The translations under genes and the position numbers were made by a program. Positions 660 to 12,279 of a stretch of DNA of 12,330 bases are shown piece after piece. The stretch comes from Oscillospiraceae bacterium (GTDB taxonomy: Bacteria; Bacillota; Clostridia; UBA1381), in contig JAJBTG010000197.1 in the NCBI GenBank assembly GCA_020860985.1, positions 1-12,330 of the forward strand, in the 5' to 3' direction. Every line of letters begins with the position of its first letter. The stretch's first letter is position 1. The notes under the pieces were generated by a model. The model did no database searches. It was not told the origin of the DNA and saw only the letters and a program-made list of their open reading frames with translations.

Positions 660-688
660 TTGTTTAACTGCGTTTTTTATGATATACT
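660..688 (+). promoter_or_regulatory. Sigma-A type promoter for the two-gene operon
   Basis: TTGTTT at 660-665 (-35) is separated by 17 nt from TATACT at 683-688 (-10), and a TG at 680-681 one base upstream of the -10 makes an extended -10 element. The spacing is ideal for a housekeeping sigma factor. It lies in the gap between the YihY-family gene and the Ser/Tyr repeat gene. Transcription would start near 695, leaving a leader of about 40 nt before the strong ribosome binding site at 723-729. No operator palindrome is evident. Confidence 0.72.
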
Positions 689-722
689 TAAAGCGGACTA
701 ACCTTACAACCACCTATATACC

Positions 723-729
723 AAGGAGG
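723..729 (+). promoter_or_regulatory. Strong ribosome binding site fixing the start at 737
   Basis: AAGGAGG, a full match to the anti-Shine-Dalgarno core, sits 7 nt before ATG 737. It fixes the start of the Ser/Tyr repeat protein and, with the promoter, implies high expression. Confidence 0.8.
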
Positions 730-736
730 GATTATC

Positions 737-1318
737 ATGATAGACATAATAGTATTTACTCAAAAAGAATTGGACAACGCGATTAATAACGGCTGTACCG
801 TTATCGCTTTGTGTGACAATAATTTCAGACTTCCCTCCGTTTCCGATATACATTATATCGCAATCGGCAAAATTACCGCTTCGATTGAATTGGACCATCC
901 CGAGGACTACGGTATAAAATTTTCCAATTTTTCACCGAAAACAAAAAAACGTCCGAAAATCGTTCATGTAGAAAATAAAGCCGTAGGAACGGCATCGCTT
1001 TCCTCCGGCTCCTATTCCTCAAGCTACGGTTCATATCTTTCGAGCTATAAGCGGGGTTCCTATTCCTCAAGCTACGGCTCATACTTTTCAAGCTACCAAA
1101 CCTCCTATTTATATAGCTATCGCTATAACTACCGCTTTAACTACCGTTCAAGCTTCTCCGGCTCCTATTCCTCGAGCTACCGTCTCGGCGGGAGCTATCG
1201 GTCGAGCTTTGCGTCAAGCTTTAAGCTTACCTCGTTTATACATAGTTTTAAGCGCGGAATGTACGACTATATATTAAGGGAGATTTCCGTAAACGGTTAC
1301 GGTATCCATCTTATTTAG
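737..1318 (+). CDS. Ser/Tyr/Gly-repeat protein of unknown function
   Basis: The 193-residue product is not recognised. Residues 1 to about 80 form a normal-composition N-terminal segment (ELDNAINNG, VIALCDNNF, then IHYIAIGKITASIEL), reminiscent of short beta-rich modules but without a family I can name. Residues 91-170 are low complexity: by my count 30 Ser and 17 Tyr in 80 residues, with Gly, Arg and Phe filling the rest. A 16-residue unit of the type GSYSSSYGSYxSSYxx occurs twice in tandem (91-106, 107-122) and partly again at 142-150. The last 25 residues (about 169-193) return to ordinary sequence. There is no signal peptide or membrane helix, so it is probably cytoplasmic unless exported by an unseen route. 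It starts at ATG 737 behind AAGGAGG and is followed 14 nt later by a glycosyltransferase-like gene, which suggests the Ser/Tyr side chains may be modified. The pattern resembles [G/S]Y[G/S] low-complexity domains that self-associate; this is analogy only. Confidence 0.85.
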   Translation: MIDIIVFTQKELDNAINNGCTVIALCDNNFRLPSVSDIHYIAIGKITASIELDHPEDYGIKFSNFSPKTKKRPKIVHVENKAVGTASLSSGSYSSSYGSYLSSYKRGSYSSSYGSYFSSYQTSYLYSYRYNYRFNYRSSFSGSYSSSYRLGGSYRSSFASSFKLTSFIHSFKRGMYDYILREISVNGYGIHLI

Positions 1319-1332
1319 AAAGGCGTGATACT

Positions 1333-2184
1333 ATGGATGCAATTCACATCAACTGGACAAAGCCGTATCGCGTTCGCACCGACGCGCCGTATTCCGTTGA
1401 AGATTTTGAACTTCTTACAACTATTTTGTCAGCTCTTAAATGGCGCGAAAAAAACGGCAGTATAAAAATGATTACCGATTCCGTCGGCAAGGAATATTAC
1501 GAAAAAATCGGTCTTTCAAAAATTTGGGACGGCGGCATAGATACCTCATTGGACCATGCCCCCGATAATATAAACCCGCGGATTTTCTGGGCGGCGGGAA
1601 AGCTCTTGGCGCTGAAAAATCAGACCGCGCCCGTTGCGGTGATAGATACCGATTTTATTGTGTGGGACAGTATTTTATTTGATAAGCTTCCTCCCGTTAC
1701 ATCCATCCACTTTGAGGATTTGTACGATGATGTTTATCCCGGCCCGTCATATTTCAAAATGAAACGCGAATATCGCTTCGACCCCGATTGGGACTGGAGC
1801 CTGCGCGCGTGCAATACCGCATTCTGCGTTTTTAAAAACCGGGAAATCATCGCCCGTTACACGGACGAAGCCGTAAGATTTATGCAAAGCATCCGCGAGG
1901 ATGTTGACGACACGCTCAGATATATGGTGTTCGCGGAACAGCGGCTTCTGCCGATGTGCGCGCAAAAAATGGATTTGTATTTTTCATCGTTCTCAACCCT
2001 TGAGCGGCTGTTCGCGCACGGCGAAAACTATTTTACCCATACATGGGGCATGAAGCAGCAGATGCGTGATATTCCCGCTCTGCGATATGATTTCTGCAAA
2101 CGCTGTGTAAACAGAATTTTAAGTGATTTTCCGTATATGGCTGATACATTAAAAAATATAGAATGTCTTAAACAGTATCTTTAA
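1333..2184 (+). CDS. Glycosyltransferase-like protein resembling DUF6734
   Basis: The 283-residue product begins with HINWTKPY and contains a strand-acidic motif AVIDTDFIVWD with a DxD at residues 105-107. This is the usual metal/nucleotide-sugar site of GT-A fold glycosyltransferases. Later motifs are RACNTAFCVFKN (158-169), FAEQRLLP with acidic E202, and FTHTWGMK with H236. This arrangement, including the opening xFW/xNWTKP and the MITDSxGK segment, matches my memory of DUF6734-type proteins, a GT-like family without established activity. No membrane segment or signal peptide is visible, so a cytoplasmic enzyme is expected. The start is ATG 1333 with AAAGG about 9 nt upstream. It follows the Ser/Tyr repeat gene by 14 nt and shares its promoter and terminator, so the repeat protein is the obvious candidate substrate (inference). 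The GT-like fold is moderately sure, family name less so, reaction unknown. Confidence 0.72.
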   Translation: MDAIHINWTKPYRVRTDAPYSVEDFELLTTILSALKWREKNGSIKMITDSVGKEYYEKIGLSKIWDGGIDTSLDHAPDNINPRIFWAAGKLLALKNQTAPVAVIDTDFIVWDSILFDKLPPVTSIHFEDLYDDVYPGPSYFKMKREYRFDPDWDWSLRACNTAFCVFKNREIIARYTDEAVRFMQSIREDVDDTLRYMVFAEQRLLPMCAQKMDLYFSSFSTLERLFAHGENYFTHTWGMKQQMRDIPALRYDFCKRCVNRILSDFPYMADTLKNIECLKQYL

Positions 2185-2190
2185 GGCAGT

Positions 2191-2224
2191 AAAAAATCCG
2201 AGGAAATAAACCCTCGGATTTTTT
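2191..2224. terminator. Bidirectional rho-independent terminator between converging operons
   Basis: A perfect 13-bp inverted repeat (2191-2203 with 2212-2224, core ATCCGAGG/CCTCGGAT) encloses an 8-nt loop. The arms begin with six A and end with six T, so each strand gives a GC-containing stem followed by a U tract. It lies 6 nt after the glycosyltransferase-like gene and 5 nt after the amidase stop codon, and serves both converging transcripts. Confidence 0.93.
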
Positions 2225-2229
2225 GTTAA

Positions 2230-3030
2230 TCAATCATACAATCCCGCACGGTCGTTGATAACCAACACTCGCAAAAGCTCGTCGGTAAGTCCCAACTCGC
2301 CGTTTTCGTTGCCCTGCAAAATGCCCTTATCCATCAGCTTCTGCACTGTCGGCACCGCCCAATCGGGCATATTTGCGTCAACATAATTGTAAATCATCTT
2401 GCCCTCAAGTGCGCTCACACGCTCGTTTAATTCCTCATACTGCGTCATAGTTAAATCCTCACTTTCCACGGCTCCGCCGTTCAAAATTGTCTTTACCTTT
2501 GCCTTAAACTCCTCAAATCCCGTTCCGCTTACCCACTGTGCCGGACAGGATTTGCCCCACACATCATAATACCTTAGCACATATGTGTCAACCTCGTCGG
2601 CACTAATGCCGATGTATGCGCACAATGCCGCGCATAGATATGCGGCGTTTGCTATAGTCGTGTCCGACACCGTATAATTTCCCGCCGTACACGCCATTTC
2701 AATACCGATACTGTTCGCGTTGCGGCAGGTCGCGTGCTTGTATACGGTAGTGCCTCCGCAATGCCACGCGCGGTTATTCAGCGCCACACTTTGGTAGCAG
2801 CTGCTGTCGTCCACAAAATAATGCGCGGACGCTTCAACGCTCGTGCTGTTGAAATAATTCGCGTTTGCCTTAGCGGTGTCCTTCGAGTTGCCGGTGTAAT
2901 GCACCACGATATACGACACCGCCCTTGACGCGCTCGCTGTGTAGTTGCTGCTTTTACACGGCAAACTTGTGTCTACGGCTATCCCGTTAAACGATGTAAT
3001 CGGATAACCCTCCGTAATAGTTTTGCTCAT
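2230..3030 (-). CDS. Endolysin: N-acetylmuramoyl-L-alanine amidase (Amidase_2/PGRP-like) with C-terminal SLH-like segment
   Basis: The 266-residue protein has an N-terminal amidase domain (about 1-185) of the T7-lysozyme/PGRP type, which cuts the amide bond between muramic acid and L-Ala of peptidoglycan. Seen motifs are VVHYTGN with zinc ligand H44, ASAHYFVDD (68-75), AWHCGG (88-93), SIGIEM (107-112) and DVWGKSCPAQW with K160 and zinc ligand C162. The expected second His ligand eight residues before that Cys is Tyr (Y154), so catalysis may be lost or altered. A short heptad-like stretch (about 195-212) leads to residues 222-266 (DWAVPTVQKLMDKGILQG, LLRVLVINDRAGLYD), an S-layer-homology-like tail common on clostridial phage lysins. 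There is no signal peptide, so release depends on the holin. Its ATG overlaps the holin stop (TAATG). It is the last gene of the late operon. Confidence 0.92.
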   Translation of the reverse strand: MSKTITEGYPITSFNGIAVDTSLPCKSSNYTASASRAVSYIVVHYTGNSKDTAKANANYFNSTSVEASAHYFVDDSSCYQSVALNNRAWHCGGTTVYKHATCRNANSIGIEMACTAGNYTVSDTTIANAAYLCAALCAYIGISADEVDTYVLRYYDVWGKSCPAQWVSGTGFEEFKAKVKTILNGGAVESEDLTMTQYEELNERVSALEGKMIYNYVDANMPDWAVPTVQKLMDKGILQGNENGELGLTDELLRVLVINDRAGLYD

Positions 3031-3365
3031 TAATCATCCACATCCTTTCCCTTTTCTATCGAAGCCATGTACATACGTTCCGCCGCCGTGGTTTGCGTTT
3101 TCGCGTCATAGCCGGCGGCGTTTTCGGTTTCGGACTTCTGCAAATAGTGCTTAACGGCAAAAAGTATCACCGTATTGGAAAACGTGCTCATCACGCTTAC
3201 TATCGTGCCTATGACAGTAGCATAACTAAGCGATTTCCCCGATTCAATCAAATTTATCAGCCGCAGAATAACATACGCGTCAAACCCCAAAATCAGGAAG
3301 AACGCCAAGCATAACCCGAACACAAGCGCCTTGCTGAAGCTTATGTATTTTTTGAATATTTTCAC
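3030..3365 (-). CDS. Phage holin-like protein, two membrane helices
   Basis: The predicted product is 111 residues, starting at GTG 3365 (VKIFKKYISFSK). The frame runs further upstream, to an ATG at 3407, but that would overlap the previous gene by 38 nt. The GTG lies just behind the previous stop region, with a GGGTGAT stretch upstream. Two hydrophobic segments are clear: KALVFGLCLAFFLILGFDAYVIL near the N-terminus and ATVIGTIVSVMSTFSNTVILFAV in the middle. A polar tail follows (KSETENAAGYDAKTQTTAAERMY). Two helices with a charged C-terminus, placed directly before an endolysin, fit a small holin that permeabilises the cytoplasmic membrane to release the lysin. I do not recognise a specific Pfam holin family. 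It ends in a TAATG overlap with the amidase. Confidence 0.68.
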   Translation of the reverse strand: MKIFKKYISFSKALVFGLCLAFFLILGFDAYVILRLINLIESGKSLSYATVIGTIVSVMSTFSNTVILFAVKHYLQKSETENAAGYDAKTQTTAAERMYMASIEKGKDVDD

Positions 3366-3369
3366 ATCA

Positions 3370-3723
3370 TCACCCAATTCCCAACCTTGTCGCGATAAAT
3401 CCCACAAGCAGACCTACAACGAGCGTCAGCGCGTAATCTACCGCCGTGCGCCACTTTTTACCGTCGCGGCTTTCAAGCTCCTTTAAGCGCTTATTTTCCG
3501 CGTCCTGTGCCTTTGCAATTGCCGATATATTTTCCGACAGCTTCGTGATATTGTCGCTCTGCTTTTGCAATGTGATGTTCATATCGCTTATTTGCCTGTT
3601 CGTTTCCTCAACGACTTTCAGCCGCTCATTAAGCCGCTTATCCTCCGCGGTGAGCGCGTCAAAATTCGCGTCCACCGTGCGCCGAAACTCCTCATGCTCC
3701 GCGCGTGTTATTGCTGTGTCCAT
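3370..3723 (-). CDS. XhlA-like coiled-coil protein with C-terminal membrane anchor
   Basis: The 117-residue protein starts at ATG 3723 behind GGGAGGAA. Residues 5-88 are strongly charged and heptad-like (EEFRRTVDANFDALTAEDKRL, then ERLKVVEETNRQISDMNITLQ and further), predicting a long coiled coil. A single C-terminal membrane helix follows (about 95-114, ALTLVVGLLVGFIATRLG). This architecture matches the hemolysin XhlA family, encoded beside holin and amidase in Bacillus PBSX-type prophages, where XhlA acts with the holin XhlB to cause lysis. Position between tail fibre and holin supports the same lysis-accessory role. Its stop lies 4 nt before the holin GTG, so the two are translationally coupled. 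The family assignment rests on architecture and context rather than a sharp motif. Confidence 0.68.
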   Translation of the reverse strand: MDTAITRAEHEEFRRTVDANFDALTAEDKRLNERLKVVEETNRQISDMNITLQKQSDNITKLSENISAIAKAQDAENKRLKELESRDGKKWRTAVDYALTLVVGLLVGFIATRLGIG

Positions 3724-3742
3724 AATTTATTCCTCCCGTTTA

Positions 3743-4441
3743 TTACTCTAACGCAACGTATTCCACCACGTACCTCATTACATTTTGCTCGCTTGTATTG
3801 CTGTTCATTGCCGCCAATGCCTCACTTTGAGAAGCATAACACCCGTCACATTCATCATCCGATTTTCCCACGGCATAATTCTCGCGTATGACAAAGCTGG
3901 TGTTCAAGTAGCTTATTCCCGTAGCATGGGGTATGCTTGCCAATGTCGCACCGGCACTGCGCGTATAGGTGCCGCATTTGCGATACACTGCCCTGCCGTC
4001 CGTCCAAGTGCCTATTTGTGTTGCTGTTTCCGAATATACGGCCAACGGCGCTACCTCATCAATAGCCTCCGCTATTTCATATGCGGTTATATATCTGTTA
4101 TCGTCAAGTGGTATATAGCTGTTGCTTGCGCTCAAATGCAGCCACTCGCCGCTTGAGCTTACCGCTCGCCAATAGGTACCGTCATACACAAACTCTACAA
4201 TCTCGCCGGCAGCCCAAGAGCCATTACCCGATGTAACAGTACTGCCCGTCATGCCGTTGTATATCGTTTTTGCACCCGTTCCACCCACATTAAGTGTAGC
4301 TGCCGTGCTTGACGTATGCGCATAAGTAAACTTAACCGTCATATGTGCGCCGGTAACCAGTTTAAAATTAGTGCAAGACACTGTTTTCGCCGCCGTTGAT
4401 GCCGCGCTATCGAGCATACTCCGTATGACGGTTGCTTCCAT
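3743..4441 (-). CDS. Tail fibre, C-terminal piece (downstream of a frameshift)
   Basis: This frame carries the missing C-terminal part of the preceding tail-fibre gene. Coding similarity resumes at about 4409 with DSAASTAAKTVSCTNF, which continues directly from GVCS in the other frame. The joined product would be about 711 residues. The in-frame ATG at 4441 lies inside the upstream piece, has no convincing ribosome binding site and codes for nonsense (EATVIRSML), so independent translation is doubtful. The segment has beta-rich repeats typical of phage receptor-binding fibres (KFTYAHTSSTAATLNVGGTG, IVEFVYDGTYWRAVSSS). A likely adhesive tip domain (about 150 residues) follows, with paired Cys residues (DDECDGCYAS). 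It would bind the host surface. It ends at TAA 3743, 19 nt before the XhlA-like start. Confidence 0.72.
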   Translation of the reverse strand: MEATVIRSMLDSAASTAAKTVSCTNFKLVTGAHMTVKFTYAHTSSTAATLNVGGTGAKTIYNGMTGSTVTSGNGSWAAGEIVEFVYDGTYWRAVSSSGEWLHLSASNSYIPLDDNRYITAYEIAEAIDEVAPLAVYSETATQIGTWTDGRAVYRKCGTYTRSAGATLASIPHATGISYLNTSFVIRENYAVGKSDDECDGCYASQSEALAAMNSNTSEQNVMRYVVEYVALE

Positions 4442-5877
4442 ATCGGCGCGGATGTCGTACCCGCCCCCACAAGCTCATATCCCGCAGTGCCTCCTGCGGT
4501 CGGCGCGTACCAAGTCTTGCTTGCTGTTGCACTTCCGTCATAGGTCGTTCCGCTGCCGTTCATCGTCAGCGTCAGCGCATTCGGGTTCTTAACCCCGTTT
4601 TCCGATATATCGTCAAATGTTTCCTTATCAGCCGCTGACATAAGTCCCGCCGCCGATGTCGTCGCGACCGCACTCGGTATTGTTACCGTCTTTGTTCTTT
4701 TTGCGGTAGTATGTCCGTTGTCGGTCGTGATTGTGTCTATAGCCGTGAATGTCCCGCCAAACGCCGGAGCGGATGTTGTCGTGGTTGCGGTCGTGGAATA
4801 TGTGGGGTGAACATACGTCTCTCCCGAGGCGACTTCATTAATAGCGTCTATTTGCTCTTGCAAATCCGCGTCAGCCGCTTCACGCGCCGACACTTCGGTG
4901 TTAATGTTAGACTGCAATTTGCTGTCTGCCGCTTCACACTTCGTTGCTTCCGCTTCAATGTTCGATCTTAACGCTGTTTTGTCAATGCAATCCTCGTTTA
5001 TATACGTAACGCCGTCGTTTTGCAGACACACGGGCGAATCACCCTCCGCTAAGATGAGCGCCTTGCCGTCGGAAGTAAGCTTTATCACATACGACGTGCC
5101 GCCCGCAATGGAATACACGCTGCTGCCGTCGGCGTTATAGGTACTCCATCGATTTTCGTCGGTATCTACTATGGTGTCGTTACCCGCGCCTGTAGCCGCC
5201 CAAACACTGTCATTGCTCGAAAGATAATATATTGTTCCACTTGACAATGCGCTGTCCGAATAAACCAACAAGTTGCTTACTTGAGTTGTGACAATTGCCT
5301 CAACCGGTATTGCCTCCGCGCCGTCAATTGAATTTATTCGCTCCAACAGTTCCGCGTCCGCCGCCTCACGCGCTTCCGCTTCGGTGTCAATGTTAGACTG
5401 CAATGTGCTGTCCGCCGCTTCACGCGCTTCCGCTTCGGCATCAATATTGTTCTGCAACGTAGTGTCCTGGTTTTTTCTTGCGAATGTTTCAAGATTAAGG
5501 GTGTCAGACACGTCTACCGCCTGTAGACGAACTAAATTAATTGCGTAAGGAGTTGCGGCATAACCGCCTGACGCTCCGTCTGTACTGTTTGTACTATCCG
5601 ACAATTTAACATGACCGTATGTCGAGCCGTCGCCCACGGTTTCGGCATGAGCGTCAATGTTAGACTGCAATGTGCTGTCCGCCGACTTCCTCGCCGTCGC
5701 TTCGGAATTAATATTCGTCTGCAACGTGCTGTCCGCGCTCTTTCGCGCGCTGACCTCCTCGCTCAAATCCTCCTCAAGCTCATTATGCTCGTCTTGTATC
5801 GTCTGAAAATTCGCCTTAACCTGAGTCCACCAATTCTTTAACAGCGTTACTCCGCTGTAATCAAAATCTAATTTCAT
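4339..5877 (-). CDS. Tail fibre, N-terminal piece, truncated by a frameshift
   Basis: The frame encodes 512 residues, but only the first 489 are authentic: after GVCS the reading turns into a basic, unrelated tail (IARHQRRRKQ...) and stops at 4339. Residues 1-35 look like the tail-attachment segment. Blocks of the form ADSTLQxNIDxEAEARE recur near 37-75, 131-180 and 303-345, giving a trimeric coiled-coil shaft. Between them lie a STYGHVKLSDST element (85-96), a beta domain (190-300) and an ATTSAAGLMSAADKETFDDI element (405-424). Both elements are widespread in phage fibres. A trimeric side or tip fibre for host recognition is inferred. The ATG overlaps the Tal stop (ATGA). The natural remainder is encoded from about 4409 to 3743 in another frame. 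Without it the receptor-binding tip would be missing. Confidence 0.85.
   Translation of the reverse strand: MKLDFDYSGVTLLKNWWTQVKANFQTIQDEHNELEEDLSEEVSARKSADSTLQTNINSEATARKSADSTLQSNIDAHAETVGDGSTYGHVKLSDSTNSTDGASGGYAATPYAINLVRLQAVDVSDTLNLETFARKNQDTTLQNNIDAEAEAREAADSTLQSNIDTEAEAREAADAELLERINSIDGAEAIPVEAIVTTQVSNLLVYSDSALSSGTIYYLSSNDSVWAATGAGNDTIVDTDENRWSTYNADGSSVYSIAGGTSYVIKLTSDGKALILAEGDSPVCLQNDGVTYINEDCIDKTALRSNIEAEATKCEAADSKLQSNINTEVSAREAADADLQEQIDAINEVASGETYVHPTYSTTATTTTSAPAFGGTFTAIDTITTDNGHTTAKRTKTVTIPSAVATTSAAGLMSAADKETFDDISENGVKNPNALTLTMNGSGTTYDGSATASKTWYAPTAGGTAGYELVGAGTTSAPIWKQPSYGVCSIARHQRRRKQCLALILNWLPAHI
4408..4414 (-). other. Frameshift junction in the tail-fibre gene
   Basis: On the coding strand the original frame is valid through TGC TCG (4416-4411); the downstream frame is valid from AGC GCG GCA (4408 on). 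Two bases, AT, lie between, so one base appears to have been lost, for example from TCC GAT, or two gained. The spot has no X XXY YYZ slippery heptamer and no homopolymer, so neither programmed frameshifting nor simple phase variation is suggested. Mutation or assembly error fits better. Confidence 0.8.
5386..5684 (-). repeat. Two identical 32-bp repeats in the tail-fibre shaft
   Basis: Bases 5386-5417 and 5653-5684 are identical over 32 bp. They encode the coiled-coil unit ending in ADSTLQSNID. Weaker copies occur near 4904-4935 and 5441-5470. The repeats are protein-repeat units that have stayed identical at DNA level, so recombination between them could delete about 267 bp (89 codons) in frame. 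Confidence 0.8.
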
Positions 5878-7166
5878 TCTTCCTCTGTCTCCTCCAATAA
5901 TATTTTTTTGCCGTCTATATAAATCGCGCCGTCCTGCTCGGTAATTTTAACTCCCGACAATGTTATATATGATGCGTCTACCACGCCGCTGAACTCTCTT
6001 TCGCCATCGGCATTTGTAGAGATTCCGTCAACAATAACCGAGCCGGAAATGGACAACGCCCTTACCTTTCCGCTTCCCGCGGATGCCTTCTTATAGCTTT
6101 TCGACAGCAATCCCATCTGATTAAGGTAAAAGAACAAATCCTTTTTAACGCGTCCTACAGAAAGCCGCGTCTGCTTCGGCTCATACGGATACGATTCAAT
6201 TTTTATAATTCGCTCAACAAACGAATTTCTCCCATCCGAAACCGTAACCGTGTCGCCCAACTGAGCGCATTCAACCTCACCGTATTCCGCGAGCCTTGCA
6301 ATATCTATAACATCACCCGAAATATTTATATCCGGCACATCTATTCGTTCCGCATTCGCCGCGCTGAACTCCCACTCCGCGCGGCTCATTATCTTCTCAG
6401 GATCGCTGTAGTCGCTGTAATCGACATATCCCTCGCGCACCCCGTAAATCGAAATATTGTCACTGTCAATATATTGCTTTCCGTCATTTACAGACCCGAT
6501 ATGCGCGTCATCGTAGCCATACGGATACAGGCGCGTAACAAGGTCCGTTATATCCCGTTCGACCGTAAGATTTTCCATATTCTTTCCAAGCCTCAATCTC
6601 AATCCCTTGTCGCTGCCGATTCTCTCTACCAACGCTATTTTGTAGTTGTCCGCATAAATCTCACCCTTACCGCAGTTTTTAATTATTTCCTGCATAACGT
6701 CATGCGGAGTTGTTTTATCCTCCGAAAAAAAATCAATCTCAAATCCGTCAGAGTCCACGCGCTTCATACCGAGAGCCGAAAGCTCACTGTCGGTAAACAG
6801 AGTAAACTGTGTATCGGAAAATATCTTTTTCATAACCGCAAGCGGTGTTTTGCCTATCATATCCGGCACATTCTGCAAATGTATCTTTTGCGAGTCCGCG
6901 TCATAAATATGCAGGCACTCGGCACTGATAACGCTCCGTCCATCATACGAACGCGTAAGCTTAATAATTCTGTACGCCTGTTCCTCGCATACCGCAATCA
7001 TATTTTCCTCAAGCAAATCCGCCTTTTCATCATTCATGGGATAGTCAAAGCTAAGCGTACAATTGCCGTTTATTTCCCGCGTAAGCTTAACATTTACCGC
7101 ATCCCCCAGAACTGCCGTCTGACCGCTTGTGAAATCCGATGCGTCATGCTCAAAAAGTCTAAGCAT
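5874..7166 (-). CDS. Tail-associated protein (Tal), Prophage_tail/endopeptidase-like
   Basis: The chosen start ATG 7166 (MLRLFEHDASDF) gives 430 residues and has TTGGAG 8 nt upstream within the end of the Dit gene. The longer frame to 7190 would lack this site. Features are the N-terminal LREINGNCTLSFDYP-type strand region, EEQAYRIIKL (residues about 60-70), HDVMQEIIKNCGKGEIYADNYKI (about 177-199), and TRLYPYGYDD (about 229-238). All are typical of the Pfam Prophage_tail family (PF06605) that follows Dit in Firmicute siphoviruses. Such proteins form the tail tip hub that closes the tube and docks fibres. Some longer homologues carry wall-degrading domains; none is visible here, so this is a short structural version and 'endopeptidase' should not be taken literally. 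Its C-terminal part (about 365-430) resembles a fibre-anchoring segment. Overlaps neighbours on both sides. Confidence 0.87.
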   Translation of the reverse strand: MLRLFEHDASDFTSGQTAVLGDAVNVKLTREINGNCTLSFDYPMNDEKADLLEENMIAVCEEQAYRIIKLTRSYDGRSVISAECLHIYDADSQKIHLQNVPDMIGKTPLAVMKKIFSDTQFTLFTDSELSALGMKRVDSDGFEIDFFSEDKTTPHDVMQEIIKNCGKGEIYADNYKIALVERIGSDKGLRLRLGKNMENLTVERDITDLVTRLYPYGYDDAHIGSVNDGKQYIDSDNISIYGVREGYVDYSDYSDPEKIMSRAEWEFSAANAERIDVPDINISGDVIDIARLAEYGEVECAQLGDTVTVSDGRNSFVERIIKIESYPYEPKQTRLSVGRVKKDLFFYLNQMGLLSKSYKKASAGSGKVRALSISGSVIVDGISTNADGEREFSGVVDASYITLSGVKITEQDGAIYIDGKKILLEETEEE

Positions 7167-8043
7167 TGCTAACACTCCAATCCACATCATCTAAATCAAA
7201 ATCATAGATAAATCGCGGCTCATACTCAATCGAAACCACCGCTTCGCCCATCACGTAAAGCGTTATATCCACGCTGTCCGACGGTATACCCAATTCAAAA
7301 AAATCGCCGCCTACATATTTCATAACACTTTCGCCGTCCGAATCCGTCACCGTCTGCTTCTTTAAATCGATAATAAATCCGCTCGCCGACGTATTAATGA
7401 TTAGCTCTTTATCCCCGCATGAAAGAGTGATATTTTTAACGCTTCCGTCAATTCGTATAATCGGTCTTGCATGAACATTTCCGGCGTTTACCGCTTCAAG
7501 CGTTTTCGATATATACGTATAGCTGCTCGTGTCGCCGGTAAAATACCATGTAAGAACATCTGAAATATCGAGCGGAATATTTAAATCGAGTTCAAATGCC
7601 GAATCTATAACCGGACCGTCCGCCGTATCAAAAACAGCAAAGCTGAACGGTTCAACTCTGAAAGCCGCCGTAAGGACGGCTTTCCTTCCGTAAAGCTCCG
7701 GTACAAATCCCATCTCGGAACCAACCCACGACTTACATTTAACCATCGGCATATCGTCAAAAATAAGCTCGCCGCTGCCTTTGAGCCATGCCGCTGTTTT
7801 TGATACCTTTTTCTCAAGCAACCTCAGATTATCCGCACTAATCTGTAGCTGCACTTCAAAAAACCTATCATTATAAAATGCCCGTCCGTACTCGTTCACC
7901 GCCGAAAAGTCATATGCGCCGTCCTCAATCGGAGATTCAAAGGTGTAGCTTTTCATTTCCGGCAAAACAGGTCTTGACTTCGTTTTGGCTACCGCACCGA
8001 ATTGAGATGAATGCAAACCCTTATATGTAAATCCTTTCCTCAT
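7159..8043 (-). CDS. Distal tail protein (Dit), Sipho_tail family
   Basis: The 294-residue protein starts at ATG 8043 behind GGGAGG in the last codons of the tape-measure gene (TAATG overlap). The beginning FTYKGLHSSQFGAVAK, the RPVLPEMKSYTFESPIEDGAYDF region and NDRFFEVQLQISADN match the N-terminal ring domain of Dit/Sipho_tail proteins (PF05709). RKAVLTAAFRVEPFSF (about residues 120-135) is the conserved end of that domain. Residues about 140-294 form the galectin-like C-terminal beta domain (HARPIIRIDGSVKNITLSCG). Dit hexamers cap the last major tail ring and hold Tal and fibres at the baseplate. Gene order tape measure - Dit - Tal is standard for Firmicute siphoviruses. Length is normal. 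Confidence 0.9.
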   Translation of the reverse strand: MRKGFTYKGLHSSQFGAVAKTKSRPVLPEMKSYTFESPIEDGAYDFSAVNEYGRAFYNDRFFEVQLQISADNLRLLEKKVSKTAAWLKGSGELIFDDMPMVKCKSWVGSEMGFVPELYGRKAVLTAAFRVEPFSFAVFDTADGPVIDSAFELDLNIPLDISDVLTWYFTGDTSSYTYISKTLEAVNAGNVHARPIIRIDGSVKNITLSCGDKELIINTSASGFIIDLKKQTVTDSDGESVMKYVGGDFFELGIPSDSVDITLYVMGEAVVSIEYEPRFIYDFDLDDVDWSVSNA

Positions 8044-9620
8044 TAGTAATACCTCCCACTCGCGATTGTTTCCTCCATGCTTTTAGTCAGATTTTTCAGT
8101 GCCGTATCATCCGCTGCGGAAATGCTGAAGCTACGGTTATCGGAATATGTGCTTTTTGAATTTATCGCGTTTATAATCTGAGCGGCAAGCGCCGCCATAA
8201 CATTCTGTATACCGCTTACATCGGAGTTAATTCCGTCTATAAGTCCCTGCACATTGATTCCCGCGCTTTGAATTGACGAAAGCAATTTCTTTTTATCCGA
8301 TTCCATCGCACTGTATTCCGATTCCAATTTCTCGATAATTTCATTGTCGGACTTTTCCAATTGATACAGCTCCTCCTCGCGCTCAAGCTCCTTAAGCTGC
8401 TCCTCCAAATCGGCATACTTACTTTTTCCTTTTTCCGTAACGGCGTTTTTATAAATCGCCATAAGGCTCTTAACCTCCGCAATATCGTCGGTTCTGTCCT
8501 CAACCTCCCATGATTCCTTCAGCGCACTTTCCTTATCCGAAAGCTCTGTTTTAACGCGGCTTATATATGCGTACTGCGCCTCCAATAGCTCCTCCGCCTC
8601 ATCCATCTGTGCGTTATACAAATCCATGGAATAATTCATGGTTTCATCGCTGTATTCCTGCCAGCTTATATATCCGTCGCGGTAAAGCTCGCCTATCCTC
8701 TCAATGCACCTTTCATAAAATTGCACCGTGCTGTCGCCGTATTCCTCCCAATCATCGTAGGTATCGCACAATTTTTTCCAATTTTCCGCATCCGATAGCC
8801 ACTTTTCATAAACGGCTCTGTTCATTTCGTTTTCCTTGTCCGTGACCGCGTTTGAAAGCGACTGCATATTTTCGCAGTATTCTCTGTACGTTATGATTCC
8901 GTAATCGTAATATTCTGCCGTATAATCCATCATACGTTCCAATCCCGCGATATAGTCCTCATTGCTCAAATTATTGTATTTGCTCTCCTGCTCCAGCCAG
9001 CGCTTCGACTGCGCCAATCTTTCCTCATACATCGCCGCGCCTATACTCGAAACATTGTCCGTATATTCCTGCCATGTTATAATACCCGATTGAAAATCCT
9101 CGTAATTCCTGCCGCGCACCCTGTCAAACGCGTCGAACGGCGTATCGCCCACGCTGTCGTAATCATTGAAGTATGCCCTGTCCGTTACATACGTCATTGA
9201 CTCCGTATTCAGCTTGTCCGCGATTTTGCGTGTTATGGAGAACACATTTTCCTCACATTCCATAACCGCCTCCGCGCTAATCGCAAATTTTTCCGCCGCG
9301 TCCTTCCACCAATCCAGCTGTTCCGTAAGCGGCATATTGCTCGAATTAAGCTTATGCTCAAACTCAACCTTTTCAAGCTCGAAAAGCTCCTGCGCCCTCT
9401 CCGACATAAAGGACGGAATTCTACTCCTCCACGAATCCGCGACCGTCATATAGCTTTTTTTAAACGCCTCACCGTAAATATATCCTATACTGTCAAGCCC
9501 CGCTGAAGCGGCTGCGGAAGCGTCCAGCGATGAAAGGCTTTCCTTTGCCGTATCTACCGCGTCGGTAAGTCCCGAAACATCGCCCGTTATAGTAACGACC
9601 AAATCAGCCGCATTCGCCAT
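8043..9620 (-). CDS. Tail tape measure protein, short form
   Basis: The 525-residue protein begins MANAADLVVTITGDVSGLTDAV, an opening common in tape measures. It is mostly alpha-helical and charged. A repeated helical module is marked by GIITWQEY (179-186), GIITYREY (241-248) and GYISWQEY (316-323), spaced 62 and 75 residues; each is followed by a long amphipathic helix. Residues about 340-460 form a strong coiled coil (DKESALKESWEVEDR, YADLEEQLKELEREEELYQLE). The C-terminus has a mildly hydrophobic patch (VMAALAAQIINAINS). No lytic transglycosylase, peptidase or clear membrane helix is seen. Tape measures set tail length at about 0.15 nm per residue, so a tail near 80 nm is expected. Position between gpGT and Dit is diagnostic. 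Ribosome binding is by GGGGTGA 4 nt upstream. Confidence 0.86.
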   Translation of the reverse strand: MANAADLVVTITGDVSGLTDAVDTAKESLSSLDASAAASAGLDSIGYIYGEAFKKSYMTVADSWRSRIPSFMSERAQELFELEKVEFEHKLNSSNMPLTEQLDWWKDAAEKFAISAEAVMECEENVFSITRKIADKLNTESMTYVTDRAYFNDYDSVGDTPFDAFDRVRGRNYEDFQSGIITWQEYTDNVSSIGAAMYEERLAQSKRWLEQESKYNNLSNEDYIAGLERMMDYTAEYYDYGIITYREYCENMQSLSNAVTDKENEMNRAVYEKWLSDAENWKKLCDTYDDWEEYGDSTVQFYERCIERIGELYRDGYISWQEYSDETMNYSMDLYNAQMDEAEELLEAQYAYISRVKTELSDKESALKESWEVEDRTDDIAEVKSLMAIYKNAVTEKGKSKYADLEEQLKELEREEELYQLEKSDNEIIEKLESEYSAMESDKKKLLSSIQSAGINVQGLIDGINSDVSGIQNVMAALAAQIINAINSKSTYSDNRSFSISAADDTALKNLTKSMEETIASGRYY

Positions 9621-9632
9621 AATTTCACCCCC

Positions 9633-10090
9633 CTATTTGCCATAGAACATCATAAGATGCTCATTATTTGAATAATCAAAATCATCCGTTTGTTCCTCAA
9701 GACTGTCAAGCAGCTTGAAAAGCATCCACGGATTCTGTCTGCCTACCTCGTCGGGCAGAATATGATGGTATCTGAAAAATACGGGATATATATCTCTCAG
9801 CTTACCTCCCCCGCCCGACTCTACTCGTTTTTTGAGGAAATAGCGTCTATATAGAAGCCCCAAAGCGTCATACAGAGCTTAGTTCTTTCCTCCGCGCCGA
9901 GAGCGTTTATAACCTCCTGAGTAGCGTCCGTACCCTCGAATATATAATCCACCGCGTCGCGGCATATATTCAACGGGCCTCTCTTTTCCTTATCGTTGTG
10001 CGCGTCGTTTATAACGCACATTGTTTCAAAATCAAACGGACGGGACACATATTTAGTATCCCCAACCGTAAAGCTTAATGTATGCTGCAT
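9633..10090 (-). CDS. gpGT-like tail assembly chaperone made by -1 frameshift
   Basis: Frameshifting at the A AAA AAC site (9833-9827) would join 88 codons of gpG to 64 residues in the -1 frame, ending at TAG 9633, for a product of about 152 residues. The T extension begins RVESGGGGKLRDIYP and continues to NPWMLFKLLDSLEEQ and SNNEHLMMFYGK. This acidic, helical ending is of the kind seen in T-domain extensions of Firmicute siphoviruses. The extension has no usable start of its own (only a TTG at 9863 without a ribosome binding site), which supports the fusion. In lambda, gpG coats the tape measure and the T domain recruits the major tail protein. The product lies immediately before the tape-measure gene, as expected. 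Frameshift efficiency cannot be read from sequence. Confidence 0.8.
9821..10090 (-). CDS. gpG-like tail assembly chaperone
   Basis: The zero-frame product is 89 residues from ATG 10090 (MQHTLSFTVGDTKYVSRPFDF). This start is chosen because GGAG lies 6 nt upstream; the frame stays open to 10135 but the extra residues (MIIFMPAQDGGTEII) have no ribosome binding site. Sequence features are the FTVGDTKYVSRPFDFETMCVIND beta segment and the helical part DATQEVINALGAEERTKLCMTLWGFY. This is a typical tail assembly chaperone layout: small protein, two positions after the tail terminator, just before the tape measure. It stops at TAG 9821, only two codons after a slippery heptamer. It is not part of the virion; it keeps the tape measure soluble while the tail tube forms. 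Confidence 0.8.
   Translation of the reverse strand: MQHTLSFTVGDTKYVSRPFDFETMCVINDAHNDKEKRGPLNICRDAVDYIFEGTDATQEVINALGAEERTKLCMTLWGFYIDAISSKNE
9827..9833 (-). promoter_or_regulatory. Slippery heptamer A AAA AAC for -1 ribosomal frameshift
   Basis: In the gpG frame the codons are TCA AAA AAC GAG TAG, giving the classical X XXY YYZ heptamer A AAA AAC in the correct phase, two codons before the gpG stop. Slipping one base continues CGA GTA GAG into the T-like extension. The following stretch is very G-rich (GGGCGGGGGAGG, about 9815-9804), which could slow the ribosome; I see no clear strong hairpin. Confidence 0.83.
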
Positions 10091-10140
10091 AATAATCTCC
10101 GTTCCGCCGTCCTGTGCCGGCATAAAAATAATCAAAAAAT

Positions 10141-10170
10141 CTCTTATCGGCAGGTAAAAAGTAATAAGAG
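10141..10170 (-). terminator. Weak hairpin plus T-run after the major tail gene (possible attenuator)
   Basis: A 7-bp inverted repeat, CTCTTAT/ATAAGAG (10164-10170 with 10141-10147), has a 16-nt loop. On the coding strand it is followed by ATTTTTTGATTATTTTTA. The stem is AT-rich, so termination would be partial. A partial stop here would keep tail tube protein in excess over chaperone and tape measure. It lies in the 91-nt gap between the major tail gene and gpG. Confidence 0.4.
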
Positions 10171-10181
10171 TATATTTTAAA

Positions 10182-10787
10182 TCAGACCGTCGGATACCAA
10201 TTCATATCCGAGAACCAATTCTCCGCAAGCTCGTCCCCGGTGATTCCGTCGGGTAGGTCGCTCTCGTCAAAATAAGCGTAATACTTATTGTCATAGTCGC
10301 GCTGAACCGCCGTATATGTCGCCTTAGCCGTCTGCTTATCGATGCTTCCCGAAGACGGCTTCGTCTTTCCTCCGACATTTGAAGCGAAGCTGTACGACCC
10401 TTTATAATATCTTACATATCTGTAAGTTACGTCGGACTTTAAGATTCTCCAAGCCACTCCGAAATAAACCGTAGCCGTATCGTTGCCGACCTCGACTACT
10501 CCGTTATTGCGTTCCAGACCTCTCCATACAGCGTCAACCTCCGGAGGGATATCCGCGTTGGTAATCTCATGCCCGATTTTTTCTATATAGGTTGTTGTTT
10601 CATAAGCGCCGTTGTCCGCGTCAAATGTATCGGAACTGCCGGCATCCGTCGGCGCGATTTCAACTATACCCTTGAGGTTGACTCCCTCTCCGTATTCCGC
10701 GCCGTTTTCATCGTCCGAAACGATGTTAAAAAAAGTATATCTGTCTACTCCTATCGTAGGTAAAGGTTTCTTCATATTAATTTCCAT
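10182..10787 (-). CDS. Major tail protein, phi13-type
   Basis: The 201-residue protein has the layout of phi13-family major tail (tube) proteins: an N-terminal strand MKKPLPTIGVDRYTFFNIV, a GVNLKGIVEIAPTDAG segment (37-52) with SSDTFDADN, then YIEKIGHEITNADIPPEV, VYFGVAWRI, VRYYKGSYSF, and a C-terminal Asp-rich stretch ending ENWFSDMNWYPTV. Hexameric rings of this protein stack to form the tail tube around the tape measure. The start is uncertain: ATG 10787 has AAAGG only 2 nt upstream, while ATG 10775 (MKKPLP) has GGAAA 5-6 nt upstream. The latter would give 197 residues. An unusually long, structured leader (10788-10944) precedes it, and a weak terminator-like hairpin follows. Both suggest separate control of this abundant structural protein within the late operon. 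Confidence 0.85.
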   Translation of the reverse strand: MEINMKKPLPTIGVDRYTFFNIVSDDENGAEYGEGVNLKGIVEIAPTDAGSSDTFDADNGAYETTTYIEKIGHEITNADIPPEVDAVWRGLERNNGVVEVGNDTATVYFGVAWRILKSDVTYRYVRYYKGSYSFASNVGGKTKPSSGSIDKQTAKATYTAVQRDYDNKYYAYFDESDLPDGITGDELAENWFSDMNWYPTV

Positions 10788-10796
10788 AGCCTTTCT

Positions 10797-10848
10797 GCCC
10801 GCAAAAGTAAATATTCATTTTAACGCTCTTATCTGCGGGCCGATAAGA
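10797..10848 (-). promoter_or_regulatory. Candidate H-type pseudoknot in the major tail gene leader
   Basis: Read on the coding strand, TCTTATC (10848-10842) pairs with GATAAGA (10833-10827), 7 bp. The 8-nt loop contains GCCCGCA (10840-10834), which pairs with TGCGGGC (10803-10797), another 7 bp. The connecting loops are 1 nt and 23 nt, geometrically compatible with an H-type pseudoknot. The second stem ends immediately before AGAAAGG and the ATG at 10787, so folding could mask or expose the ribosome binding site. A competing hairpin, ATAAGA/TCTTAT (10858-10853 with 10848-10843), shares one arm. Structure and role are inferred. Confidence 0.42.
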
Positions 10849-10878
10849 CGTTTCTTATATGTGCCCAACTCCCACCTC

Positions 10879-10905
10879 ATGGGGGCGAACAGCGTTCGCC
10901 CACAT
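10879..10905. repeat. GC-rich palindrome (REP-like) in the leader of the major tail gene
   Basis: GGGCGAAC and GTTCGCCC (10883-10890, 10894-10901) form an 8-bp perfect stem around a 3-nt loop. After one mismatch, three further pairs extend it to 10879-10905. Neither strand has a U tract behind it, so it is not a standard terminator. It resembles short dispersed palindromes common between genes in clostridial genomes (from memory). It occupies part of the 157-nt gap 10788-10944, the longest non-coding stretch in the prophage part. Confidence 0.6.
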
Positions 10906-10944
10906 CTACCCATCTCCACCCCAACATTTTAAATCATCCGTCCC

Positions 10945-11286
10945 TCAGCAAAAGCATTTAACATATCTCATCGTTCGATGATACGCTCTTTCCCCACTCT
11001 GCTTTGGAATATCCATAGAGAACTGCCTGCACCAGCCGTCCGCCGTCAAAAGACCGTTTATCTCAAGCGCAATCCTCCCACATTCATCGGGAACCTCCGC
11101 CCAAATGTCAAGCTGAACAACGCCGTCCTGGAGTTGCTCCTCATTGTCGTATGACATTGAAACCGACTCGGTAAGATTGTAATAGCTTACAACCGGCAGC
11201 TTGTTAAAGCCCTCGGGATGCTGATAGACAAGCGTACAATCCAAATCACTCAATGATTTTTCCAATTCCGGATTAACATCAATCAC
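10945..11286 (-). CDS. Tail terminator / tail completion protein (putative)
   Basis: Taking GTG 11286 as start gives 113 residues (VIDVNPELEKSLSDLDCTLVYQHPEGFNKLPVVSYYNLTESVS...). GGAGGG lies about 5 nt upstream, inside the end of the previous gene. The frame stays open to 11343 without a better site. The HPEGFNKLPVVSYYNLTES segment, the LQDGVVQLDIWAEVPDECG segment and the closing MDIPKQSGERAYHRTMRYVKC are characteristic of small Firmicute phage tail-completion proteins. These are usually annotated as minor capsid or tail terminator and found between gp10-like and major tail genes. Such proteins cap the tail tube where it meets the head. Assignment is mainly by these motifs and gene order. 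It is followed by the 157-nt leader of the major tail gene. Confidence 0.7.
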   Translation of the reverse strand: MIDVNPELEKSLSDLDCTLVYQHPEGFNKLPVVSYYNLTESVSMSYDNEEQLQDGVVQLDIWAEVPDECGRIALEINGLLTADGWCRQFSMDIPKQSGERAYHRTMRYVKCFC

Positions 11287-11287
11287 A

Positions 11288-11605
11288 TTATCCCTCCTTC
11301 GCAACAACCGAATTTCTGATAATATCCCTAACCTCGGCGGCATTATTCAGCAGCGCCGGAACAAGAAACGGTCTTGCCGCCGCTGTACAAGTGCCGAACT
11401 CAACATATGCGGCGCAATCCGCGTCCGCCTTTACGGACGCGCCGCATTCCGACGCTTCGGCTGAAATCGAATCTTTCAAATCGCCCATGTCCTCCGGACA
11501 CATCTCCTCCGCGTTTTTCGCGACAAACTCCGCCGCGCGCTCCATAGCTCCCTCTGTACTTATCCCCGAAAACAGCGAATCGGTATTTCCCGAAATACTA
11601 ATCAT
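11288..11605 (-). CDS. HK97 gp10-like tail component
   Basis: Start ATG 11605 (MISISGNTDSLFSGISTEG) gives 105 residues and has AAAGGGTG 7 nt upstream. The frame can be extended to 11824, but the extra residues are Arg/Cys-rich nonsense over the preceding gene. The order of elements matches HK97 gp10-like proteins (PF04883): a helix AMERAAEFVAKNAEEMCPEDMGDLKDSISAEA, strands SVKADADCAAYVEFGT, then AARPFLVPALLNNAAEVRDIIRNS. The YVEFGT...RPFLxPAL signature is the family hallmark. The protein acts at the head-tail junction during tail completion. It overlaps the upstream stop by 8 nt, and its own stop (TAA 11288) falls one base before the next GTG, giving coupled translation. Confidence 0.87.
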   Translation of the reverse strand: MISISGNTDSLFSGISTEGAMERAAEFVAKNAEEMCPEDMGDLKDSISAEASECGASVKADADCAAYVEFGTCTAAARPFLVPALLNNAAEVRDIIRNSVVAKEG

Positions 11606-11927
11606 CAGAACACACCCTTTCGATAAGAGCCGTAATACCCATGCTCCATCTCTCGGCATATGTAATGCGGTACATCTCGTCGTCAAATTTAACATAGTTA
11701 CCCTCGCATATATTTTCATTGTCGGAGCAGTACATTTTAAAACGCTTAACCGCGTCAAGTCCGAACTCTCTTTCCTCAAGCTGACCGCTGTACGGCTGAA
11801 TATCCGCCGACACCGTACAGACATATTCCTTTTCCGCCGCCGAAGAATACCCGGAGCCGCTCTTAATGCAATAAATATCCGCGGGCGTCTTGCAAAAATA
11901 CGAAAATGCGTTTTTAACCCTGTTCAT
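11598..11927 (-). CDS. Head-tail adaptor (head closure/stopper) protein
   Basis: The 109-residue protein starts at ATG 11927 with GGAGG 6 nt upstream. The N-terminal MNRVKNAFSYFCKTPADIY, the middle YVCTVSADIQPYSGQLEEREFGLDAVKRFKMYCSDN and the C-terminal GNYVKFDDEMYRITYAERWSMGITALIERV form a small beta-barrel pattern. This pattern is typical of head-closure proteins (SPP1 gp16 / YqbH-like), in which a strand run ending in MYRITYAERW is common. These rings seal the portal-connector channel after DNA packaging. Position between the connector (gp6/gp15-like) and gp10-like genes agrees. It overlaps the previous gene by 14 nt and the next by 8 nt. The family is inferred from pattern and order. Confidence 0.75.
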   Translation of the reverse strand: MNRVKNAFSYFCKTPADIYCIKSGSGYSSAAEKEYVCTVSADIQPYSGQLEEREFGLDAVKRFKMYCSDNENICEGNYVKFDDEMYRITYAERWSMGITALIERVCSDD

Positions 11928-12279
11928 CGCACACCTCCATATCGGAGGGCAAACGCGCGGATTTATTTATAAACGGCTCAAGCCTCGGAACATAGCTCCC
12001 GAAGCACGAAAGCTCCGTATCAAACTCAACGCACCTTTCCCCCTCGGTAACCGATTTAACTCCGCCGTACAAATCCGTGCCACCGTATCCTCGAGAACGG
12101 TATGTTTCCGCAACCATCTGCGCCGTAAGTCCGTAGAGCTGATACGGAAGCACATCGATTCTGCAATATTTCATAACCGCGCCTATAGTGTCGTCTATCA
12201 GGAATAGGAGCAATTCATCCGAATCACTGTCACTGATTCCAAGCAGCATTTTGGCATTTTCCAGAATTTCATTCTCCAC
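11914..12279 (-). CDS. Head-tail connector protein (gp6/YqbG-like)
   Basis: The start is GTG 12279 (MENEILENAKMLLGIS), with AAGGGGTG (12294-12287) 7 nt upstream, giving 121 residues. The helical layout ENAKMLLGISDSDSDELLLFLIDDTIGAVMKYCRID, then LPYQLYGLTAQMVAETYRSRGYGGTD, and SVTEGERCVEFD matches the phage head-tail connector family (HK97 gp6-like, SPP1 gp15 and Bacillus YqbG relatives). The typical signature is a Cys/Ile-rich first helix pair, a second helix pair ending in Tyr-Arg-Ser, and a short SxTxG loop. The protein forms the adaptor ring under the portal. It is the first gene of the module visible; capsid genes should lie beyond the right edge. Bases 12280-12330 hold no gene I can define. 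Confidence 0.82.
   Translation of the reverse strand: MENEILENAKMLLGISDSDSDELLLFLIDDTIGAVMKYCRIDVLPYQLYGLTAQMVAETYRSRGYGGTDLYGGVKSVTEGERCVEFDTELSCFGSYVPRLEPFINKSARLPSDMEVCDEQG

Follow-up and report, generated by a model that had tools for sequence, protein, structure and literature searches.

The glycosylation of serine-rich repeat proteins, as by streptococcal GtfA/GtfB or by GlyE with PsrP, brings together a serine-rich protein of low complexity and the glycosyltransferases dedicated to it. Glycogenin (CAZy family GT8) self-glucosylates; an excerpt of a 2024 review gives a tyrosine as the residue concerned, and states that glycogenin homologues did not turn up in those bacteria that form glycogen and have been sequenced (PMC11046441). 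Mycofactocin, as an excerpt of its description has it, stems from a short precursor peptide whose C-terminal motif is very well conserved, and its system includes a glycosyltransferase (PMC3023750). Here we describe a two-gene unit that resembles each of these in part. It lies in a 12,330-nucleotide stretch of DNA from an Oscillospiraceae bacterium (contig JAJBTG010000197.1; the whole stretch is called the window) and encodes a protein of the family DUF6734, here called the enzyme, and a partner protein that ends in a conserved motif.

Like the serine-rich repeat systems, the unit combines a serine-rich, low-complexity protein with a putative dedicated glycosyltransferase, and GlyE is among the fold matches of the enzyme; unlike them, it has a single enzyme, a C-terminal motif, partners down to 23 amino acids, and no cell-wall anchor family among the Pfam matches of the partner to E 1. 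The enzyme shares with glycogenin its predicted fold, a DxD motif and, as proposed, a protein hydroxyl as acceptor; it differs in its low identity (6-10% in structural alignments), in having no Pfam GT8 match, and in being accompanied by a separate partner protein. The likeness to mycofactocin lies in a short peptide that is very conserved at its C-terminal end and found beside a glycosyltransferase; however, no radical SAM enzyme recurs among the open reading frames (ORFs) within 4 kb, because the pair has no other widely recurrent neighbor. The sequence-only reading that preceded this analysis knew of no described system with this pairing, and none was found in searches of the open part of PubMed Central, which gave nothing for DUF6734, PF20508 or five strings of the motif.

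Co-occurrence of the pair and its C-terminal motif

Enzyme and partner genes form a pair that co-occurs closely, carries a conserved motif and lacks any other widely shared neighbor. In the window, the partner ORF (737..1318, + strand; 193 amino acids) is followed after 14 nucleotides by that of the enzyme (1333..2184, + strand; 283 amino acids, a predicted GT-A glycosyltransferase). Among 101 related genomes (several of the genomes compared are incomplete), the enzyme was found in 34, the repeat family in 34 and both in 31; the partner is adjacent in 22 of the 34 enzyme genomes and elsewhere in the genome in 11, with none found in one (G029). A sample of 391 genomes of the class held the enzyme in 20 (19 above the Pfam cut-off), each with a partner, adjacent in 15 and elsewhere in 5. 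At 61 of 80 named loci, the partner is adjacent to the enzyme gene, at a spacing of -4 to 51 nucleotides. When ORFs of at least 80 amino acids were clustered across the 80 loci, every other family within 4 kb was limited to at most 3 of the 11 enzyme clades (our own grouping). With no other family recurring widely, the pair is a self-contained unit, as the sequence-only reading had held. That reading had also named the finding that would speak against it, namely homologues of the enzyme occurring mainly without a partner; the counts came out for the pair (33 of 34 and 20 of 20 genomes; 61 of 80 loci).

What is constant among the partners is the C-terminal motif, a feature absent from the sequence-only reading, and not the repeat. 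In the window it reads GYGIHLI-stop (1295..1318, + strand); as a proposed recognition tag it draws on invariance in partner alignments A1 and A3, an unguided count and pattern searches. G187, Y188, G189 and I193 are invariant in both alignments; the 107 sequences of A3 were gathered by whole-protein similarity, the motif playing no part in their selection. Earlier counts partly preset the motif, as G-(Y or F)-G or as YG, and their invariant columns arise partly by selection. Because those search expressions contained parts of the motif, an unguided count was made of all dipeptides in the last 12 residues of 104 ORFs ending up to 60 nucleotides before (or 10 after) the enzyme start, at 80 loci. 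YG at -6 ranked first (61 loci), GY at -7 next (59), then LI at -2 (55); the best dipeptide at a control site, 1200 nucleotides further on, was common to 3 loci. Once YG was imposed, and nothing else, positions -4 to -1 read [LIVM][NEDH][LI][IV] in 61 of 61, and a G precedes in 59.

Searches for the motif in DNA gave a similar distribution. A first, strict pattern matched 12 of 20 enzyme genomes against 4 of 371 others (reversed control, 5 matches); it left out the leucine codons TTA and TTG and was widened afterwards, to G-Y-G, any NTN codon, any NAN codon, Leu or Phe, Ile, and TRR. The widened pattern matched 37 of the 101 relatives, once each: 33 of the 34 that bear the enzyme and 4 of the 67 that do not, with 0 matches for the reversed control. 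Fisher's p for pattern against enzyme is 5e-21, a value that ignores shared ancestry, counts across relatives not being independent. Of the four enzyme-free genomes, G051 and G057 owe their match to true repeat proteins, whereas the matches in G065 and G084, with the endings YFI and KFI, seem fortuitous. Because the pattern requires Leu or Phe ahead of the final Ile, it misses partners that end NII (L143, L153); it matched 3 of 9 named genomes.

Partner and enzyme

The partner consists of a conserved N-terminal domain, a Ser/Tyr low-complexity repeat and the conserved C-terminus, as read from its ORF and from A1 and A3; the repeat (approximately 1007..1225, + strand) is a proposed acceptor region, on the evidence of translation and partner composition. 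The protein matched no family of Pfam, NCBIfam or PHROG at the thresholds used, a search of known structures by its sequence gave nothing useful (best E 0.44), and none of ten partners from other lineages rose above a curated Pfam cut-off. No hydrophobic segment was seen at its N-terminus by inspection. A single-protein search collected 33 homologous proteins, itself included; a profile search, which scored the best 8000 candidates, collected 126 at E 0.01. The N-domain alone also matches weakly inside longer frames of 426-557 amino acids (G056:C2:31166-31390 and 32505-32681; G032:C4:42977-43117), and may be a module used elsewhere.

The self-contained pair and the glycosyltransferase-like enzyme of the sequence-only reading stand; the Ser/Tyr repeat as the defining feature of the partner does not. 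Across the 107 aligned homologues of A3 the Ser/Tyr region varies freely, and the N-termini of proteins encoded upstream of DUF6734 are unlike between lineages. The f54 partners have (SG)n repeats without tyrosine; the f59 partner is a TSYLTSY protein; Clostridium partners of ∼60-80 residues, and 23-residue peptides at three of four Cellulosilyticum loci, carry the motif at the C-terminus; the partner in G039 is a short form without the N-domain. A 40-residue stretch with at least 60% S/G/Y/F/T is present in 41 of the 61 adjacent partners and missing in 20, and 19 of the 61 have 90 amino acids or fewer; lengths were taken from the longest start and are possibly overestimated (604 amino acids at L169 is probably too long). 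Serine is the residue most enriched ahead of the motif (the median is 20% over 40 residues, compared with 4.8% in the enzymes); tyrosine reaches 7.5% and is absent in 6 of the 61 partners.

The enzyme belongs to PF20508 (DUF6734), a family with no assigned function: it scores 37.8 bits against a cut-off of 27 and covers positions 6-220 of the 286 in the profile. A Pfam scan to E 1 gave only DUF6734 and DUF1923, with no GT8 match, and known structures searched by sequence yielded nothing useful (best E 2.2, zinc-finger chains). The DxD motif is D105-T106-D107 (1645..1653, + strand), in which both aspartates, D105 and D107, are invariant across all 66 (alignment A2) and all 18 (A4) aligned homologues. 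Further on, HTWGMK (H236 to K241; 2038..2055, + strand), which we take to be comparable with the H..G..K motif of GT8, is invariant at H236, W238, G239 and K241 in both alignments. The AlphaFold2 (AF2) model has a predicted local distance difference test score (pLDDT) of 95.2. Its best fold matches by VIA-align are glycogenin, UGGT, YeGT and LgtC, and by Foldseek YeGT and glycogenin, with GlyE lower; a comparison with viral structure models gave many glycosyltransferases at remote similarity and no more. The predicted structure has a GT-A fold, and the DxD is present; a GT-A-like fold with intact DxD is predicted with good confidence, in agreement with the DxD-containing, glycosyltransferase-like enzyme proposed from the sequence.

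A proposed glycosylation pair and its rivals

We think it rather likely that the unit is a dedicated protein-glycosylation pair, in which a cytoplasmic GT-A enzyme would modify one motif-tagged cognate partner. That is, the DUF6734 protein would be a cytoplasmic GT-A glycosyltransferase of glycogenin-like fold; it would recognize the free C-terminal YG[IL]x[LI]I of one partner in the same genome, usually encoded just upstream; and it would transfer sugar to partner hydroxyls, most likely those of serine and threonine (perhaps tyrosine) in the low-complexity region before the motif. A sequence that stays fixed at the free C-terminus of proteins that differ elsewhere resembles a docking signal, and a glycosyltransferase whose client is marked by a C-terminal peptide is probably the simplest mechanism that fits. 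We infer both the transfer of sugar to the partner and the role of the motif in recognition; that the acceptor residues lie in the low-complexity region is suggested more weakly. In one homologue, P0065, the N-domain and Ser/Tyr region run straight into the enzyme and the motif is absent, which is expected if the motif only brings enzyme and partner together.

A number of observations weigh against this proposal. P0065 is a single sequence from a single contig, where a deletion or the assembly may have produced it. The Foldseek similarity of the enzyme is remote (template modeling score to query 0.32-0.47, root-mean-square deviation 6-19 Å, among the matches listed), and a shared predicted fold does not show the substrate. 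A docking model of enzyme and peptide left the peptide undocked, with peptide pLDDT <50. Two genomes, G051 and G057 (87% and 81% complete), have a true repeat protein with no enzyme found, and G005 weakly matches the N-domain only; the 80 named loci were, among 314 relatives, the 80 closest. The DUF6734 relatives found on 12 viral contigs (L208-L219) are distant (25-33% identity) and have no motif partner, nor was one found with the weak Bacteroidota enzyme matches that were fetched; the pairing therefore belongs to one subfamily. Finally, short partners contain few serines and threonines (at minimum 1 in the 24 residues preceding the motif); a serine-rich array is therefore not needed.

With so few Ser/Thr in the short partners, and the motif tyrosine fixed in all, glycosylation of tyrosine is a serious rival. 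The enzyme would then act as a glycogenin in trans on the tyrosine of the GYG motif and might in this way prime an oligosaccharide or intracellular glucan, with the repeats as spacer or scaffold. This tyrosine is the sole hydroxyl whose position is the same in all 61 partners, the 23-residue ones included, and the best VIA-align match is glycogenin, itself a tyrosine-glucosylating enzyme in the excerpt cited above (PMC11046441); we nonetheless judge this reading unlikely. Bacterial glycogen synthase of the GlgA type (PF08323) was considered as a link to glycogen: it is present in 34 of 34 enzyme-bearing relatives and also in 56 of the 67 others, and being non-discriminating it leaves room for a role in glycogen priming without supporting one. 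The fuller form, in which a GT8-like enzyme would act on the tyrosine of a C-terminal YG[IL]x[LI]I on a separate carrier, to prime an intracellular glycan from a sequon portable among partners of 23 to several hundred residues, is more doubtful.

Other rivals place the sugar elsewhere or dispense with a protein acceptor. The partner might be a tether, scaffold or regulator that binds the enzyme by its C-terminus while the enzyme glycosylates something else; the same co-occurrence data would follow, and lineage-variable N-termini could bind different things, but serine-rich repeats of differing design accompany the motif in several enzyme clades, and we hold this improbable. In 23-residue partners with a conserved C-terminus one might see a ribosomally synthesized and post-translationally modified peptide, its C-terminal core modified and released as has been proposed for mycofactocin, whose precursor is outlined above; yet the neighboring genes (linked genes only were surveyed) include no widely recurrent candidate for a maturase, peptidase or transporter, partners of >300 amino acids are implausible as leaders, and the idea is very improbable. 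Mobile or phage-borne cargo (a phage moron, a toxin-antitoxin or a defense pair) is brought to mind by the phage structural genes that directly follow in the window. Against it, neither protein matched the PADLOC models to E 0.1, the motif match is single in each genome where it is present, and a homologue of the YihY-type gene occurs at 19 related loci; the phage-moron form was rejected, since 50,697 phage records held no enzyme match at E 1e-5 and viral contigs carry only the 12 distant, motif-less relatives. We give cargo next to no weight.

Setting, spread and meaning

The source genome (1.49 Mb in 281 contigs, 73.75% complete) contains the window as contig C273. A YihY/BrkB-type gene (PF03631) enters from the left, and is followed by promoter, partner gene, enzyme gene and hairpin terminator; past the terminator, on the opposite strand, come an amidase gene and then phage tail genes. 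The promoter (660..688, + strand), as read from the sequence, consists of a -35-like TTGTTT (660-665), a 17-nucleotide spacer and an extended -10, TGATATACT, at 680-688. At 15 of the 18 related loci compared, an extended -10 lies within 110 nucleotides upstream of the partner start; among letter-shuffled upstream sequences, 5.6% have one. We chose the 18 from the 21 loci at which a partner of the window's type is adjacent, and some are near copies. The strong ribosome binding site of the partner, AAGGAGG (723..729, + strand), is followed 7 nucleotides later by the ATG at 737; that of the enzyme is weaker by inspection, and the sequence-only reading had supposed from this that the partner would be made in excess. 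The intrinsic terminator (2190..2225) is a 14-bp hairpin (-18.6 kcal/mol, z -5.7), usable in both directions because of an A-run on its 5' side; transcription of the convergent amidase gene (2230-3030) may stop there too. A scan for consensus promoters and terminators listed neither the promoter nor the terminator of the unit. The sequence thus bears out each element of the complete two-gene cassette originally claimed: extended -10 promoter, strong ribosome binding site and strong terminator. The phage-type block (2230-12279, - strand: amidase/endolysin, prophage tail endopeptidase, major tail protein) is convergent with the unit and shares its terminator; the cassette is outside the block, beside the YihY/BrkB-type gene.

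The 19 named loci without an adjacent partner comprise L168, L106, L108, L154 and a well-supported 15-locus branch of the enzyme tree; all 15 loci of this branch have an O-methyltransferase-like ORF (here and below, such gene names are by inspection). On the tree, a single Butyricicoccaceae type is divided between the labels ‘other’ and ‘ButyriN’, and counts by label are rough. At L106 and L108 the enzyme follows a RodA/FtsW-like gene. Among 21 loci without an adjacent G-(Y or F)-G partner, no other motif ORF was found in the locus. At six loci, from genomes in or close to the 15-locus branch, the partner precedes a U32-peptidase-like gene. These split-pair loci are L204, L205, L206, L049, L051 and L089; a HydF-like gene precedes the partner in L204, L205, L049 and L089, and in split pairs the enzyme follows MltG-like and O-methyltransferase-like genes. 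Both neighborhoods may be remnants of one older arrangement. At L168, a Spirochaetaceae record, GYGIHLI is inside a longer ORF (3261-4004) that continues into a hydrophobic segment and overlaps the enzyme start; this ORF has a weak zinc-ribbon match, below cut-off.

The enzyme subfamily also occurs at loci titled Bacteroidetes and Spirochaetaceae, the former with an adjacent partner ending AYGLNLI. In class samples around these two loci, the strong match was confined to the center genome (1 of 148 and 1 of 247, with 6 more weak matches among the 247), and the occurrences look like horizontal transfer; misbinning may also explain them, the contigs being metagenome-assembled.

For the family DUF6734, the pair provides a concrete substrate hypothesis, and its short C-terminal motif is a recognition element that can be tested directly. 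If the motif suffices, it would be a portable glycosylation tag; if its tyrosine is the acceptor, the pair would be relevant to the question of how bacteria might initiate glycans on proteins in the absence of glycogenin. The pair hints at an undescribed way of attaching sugar to protein.
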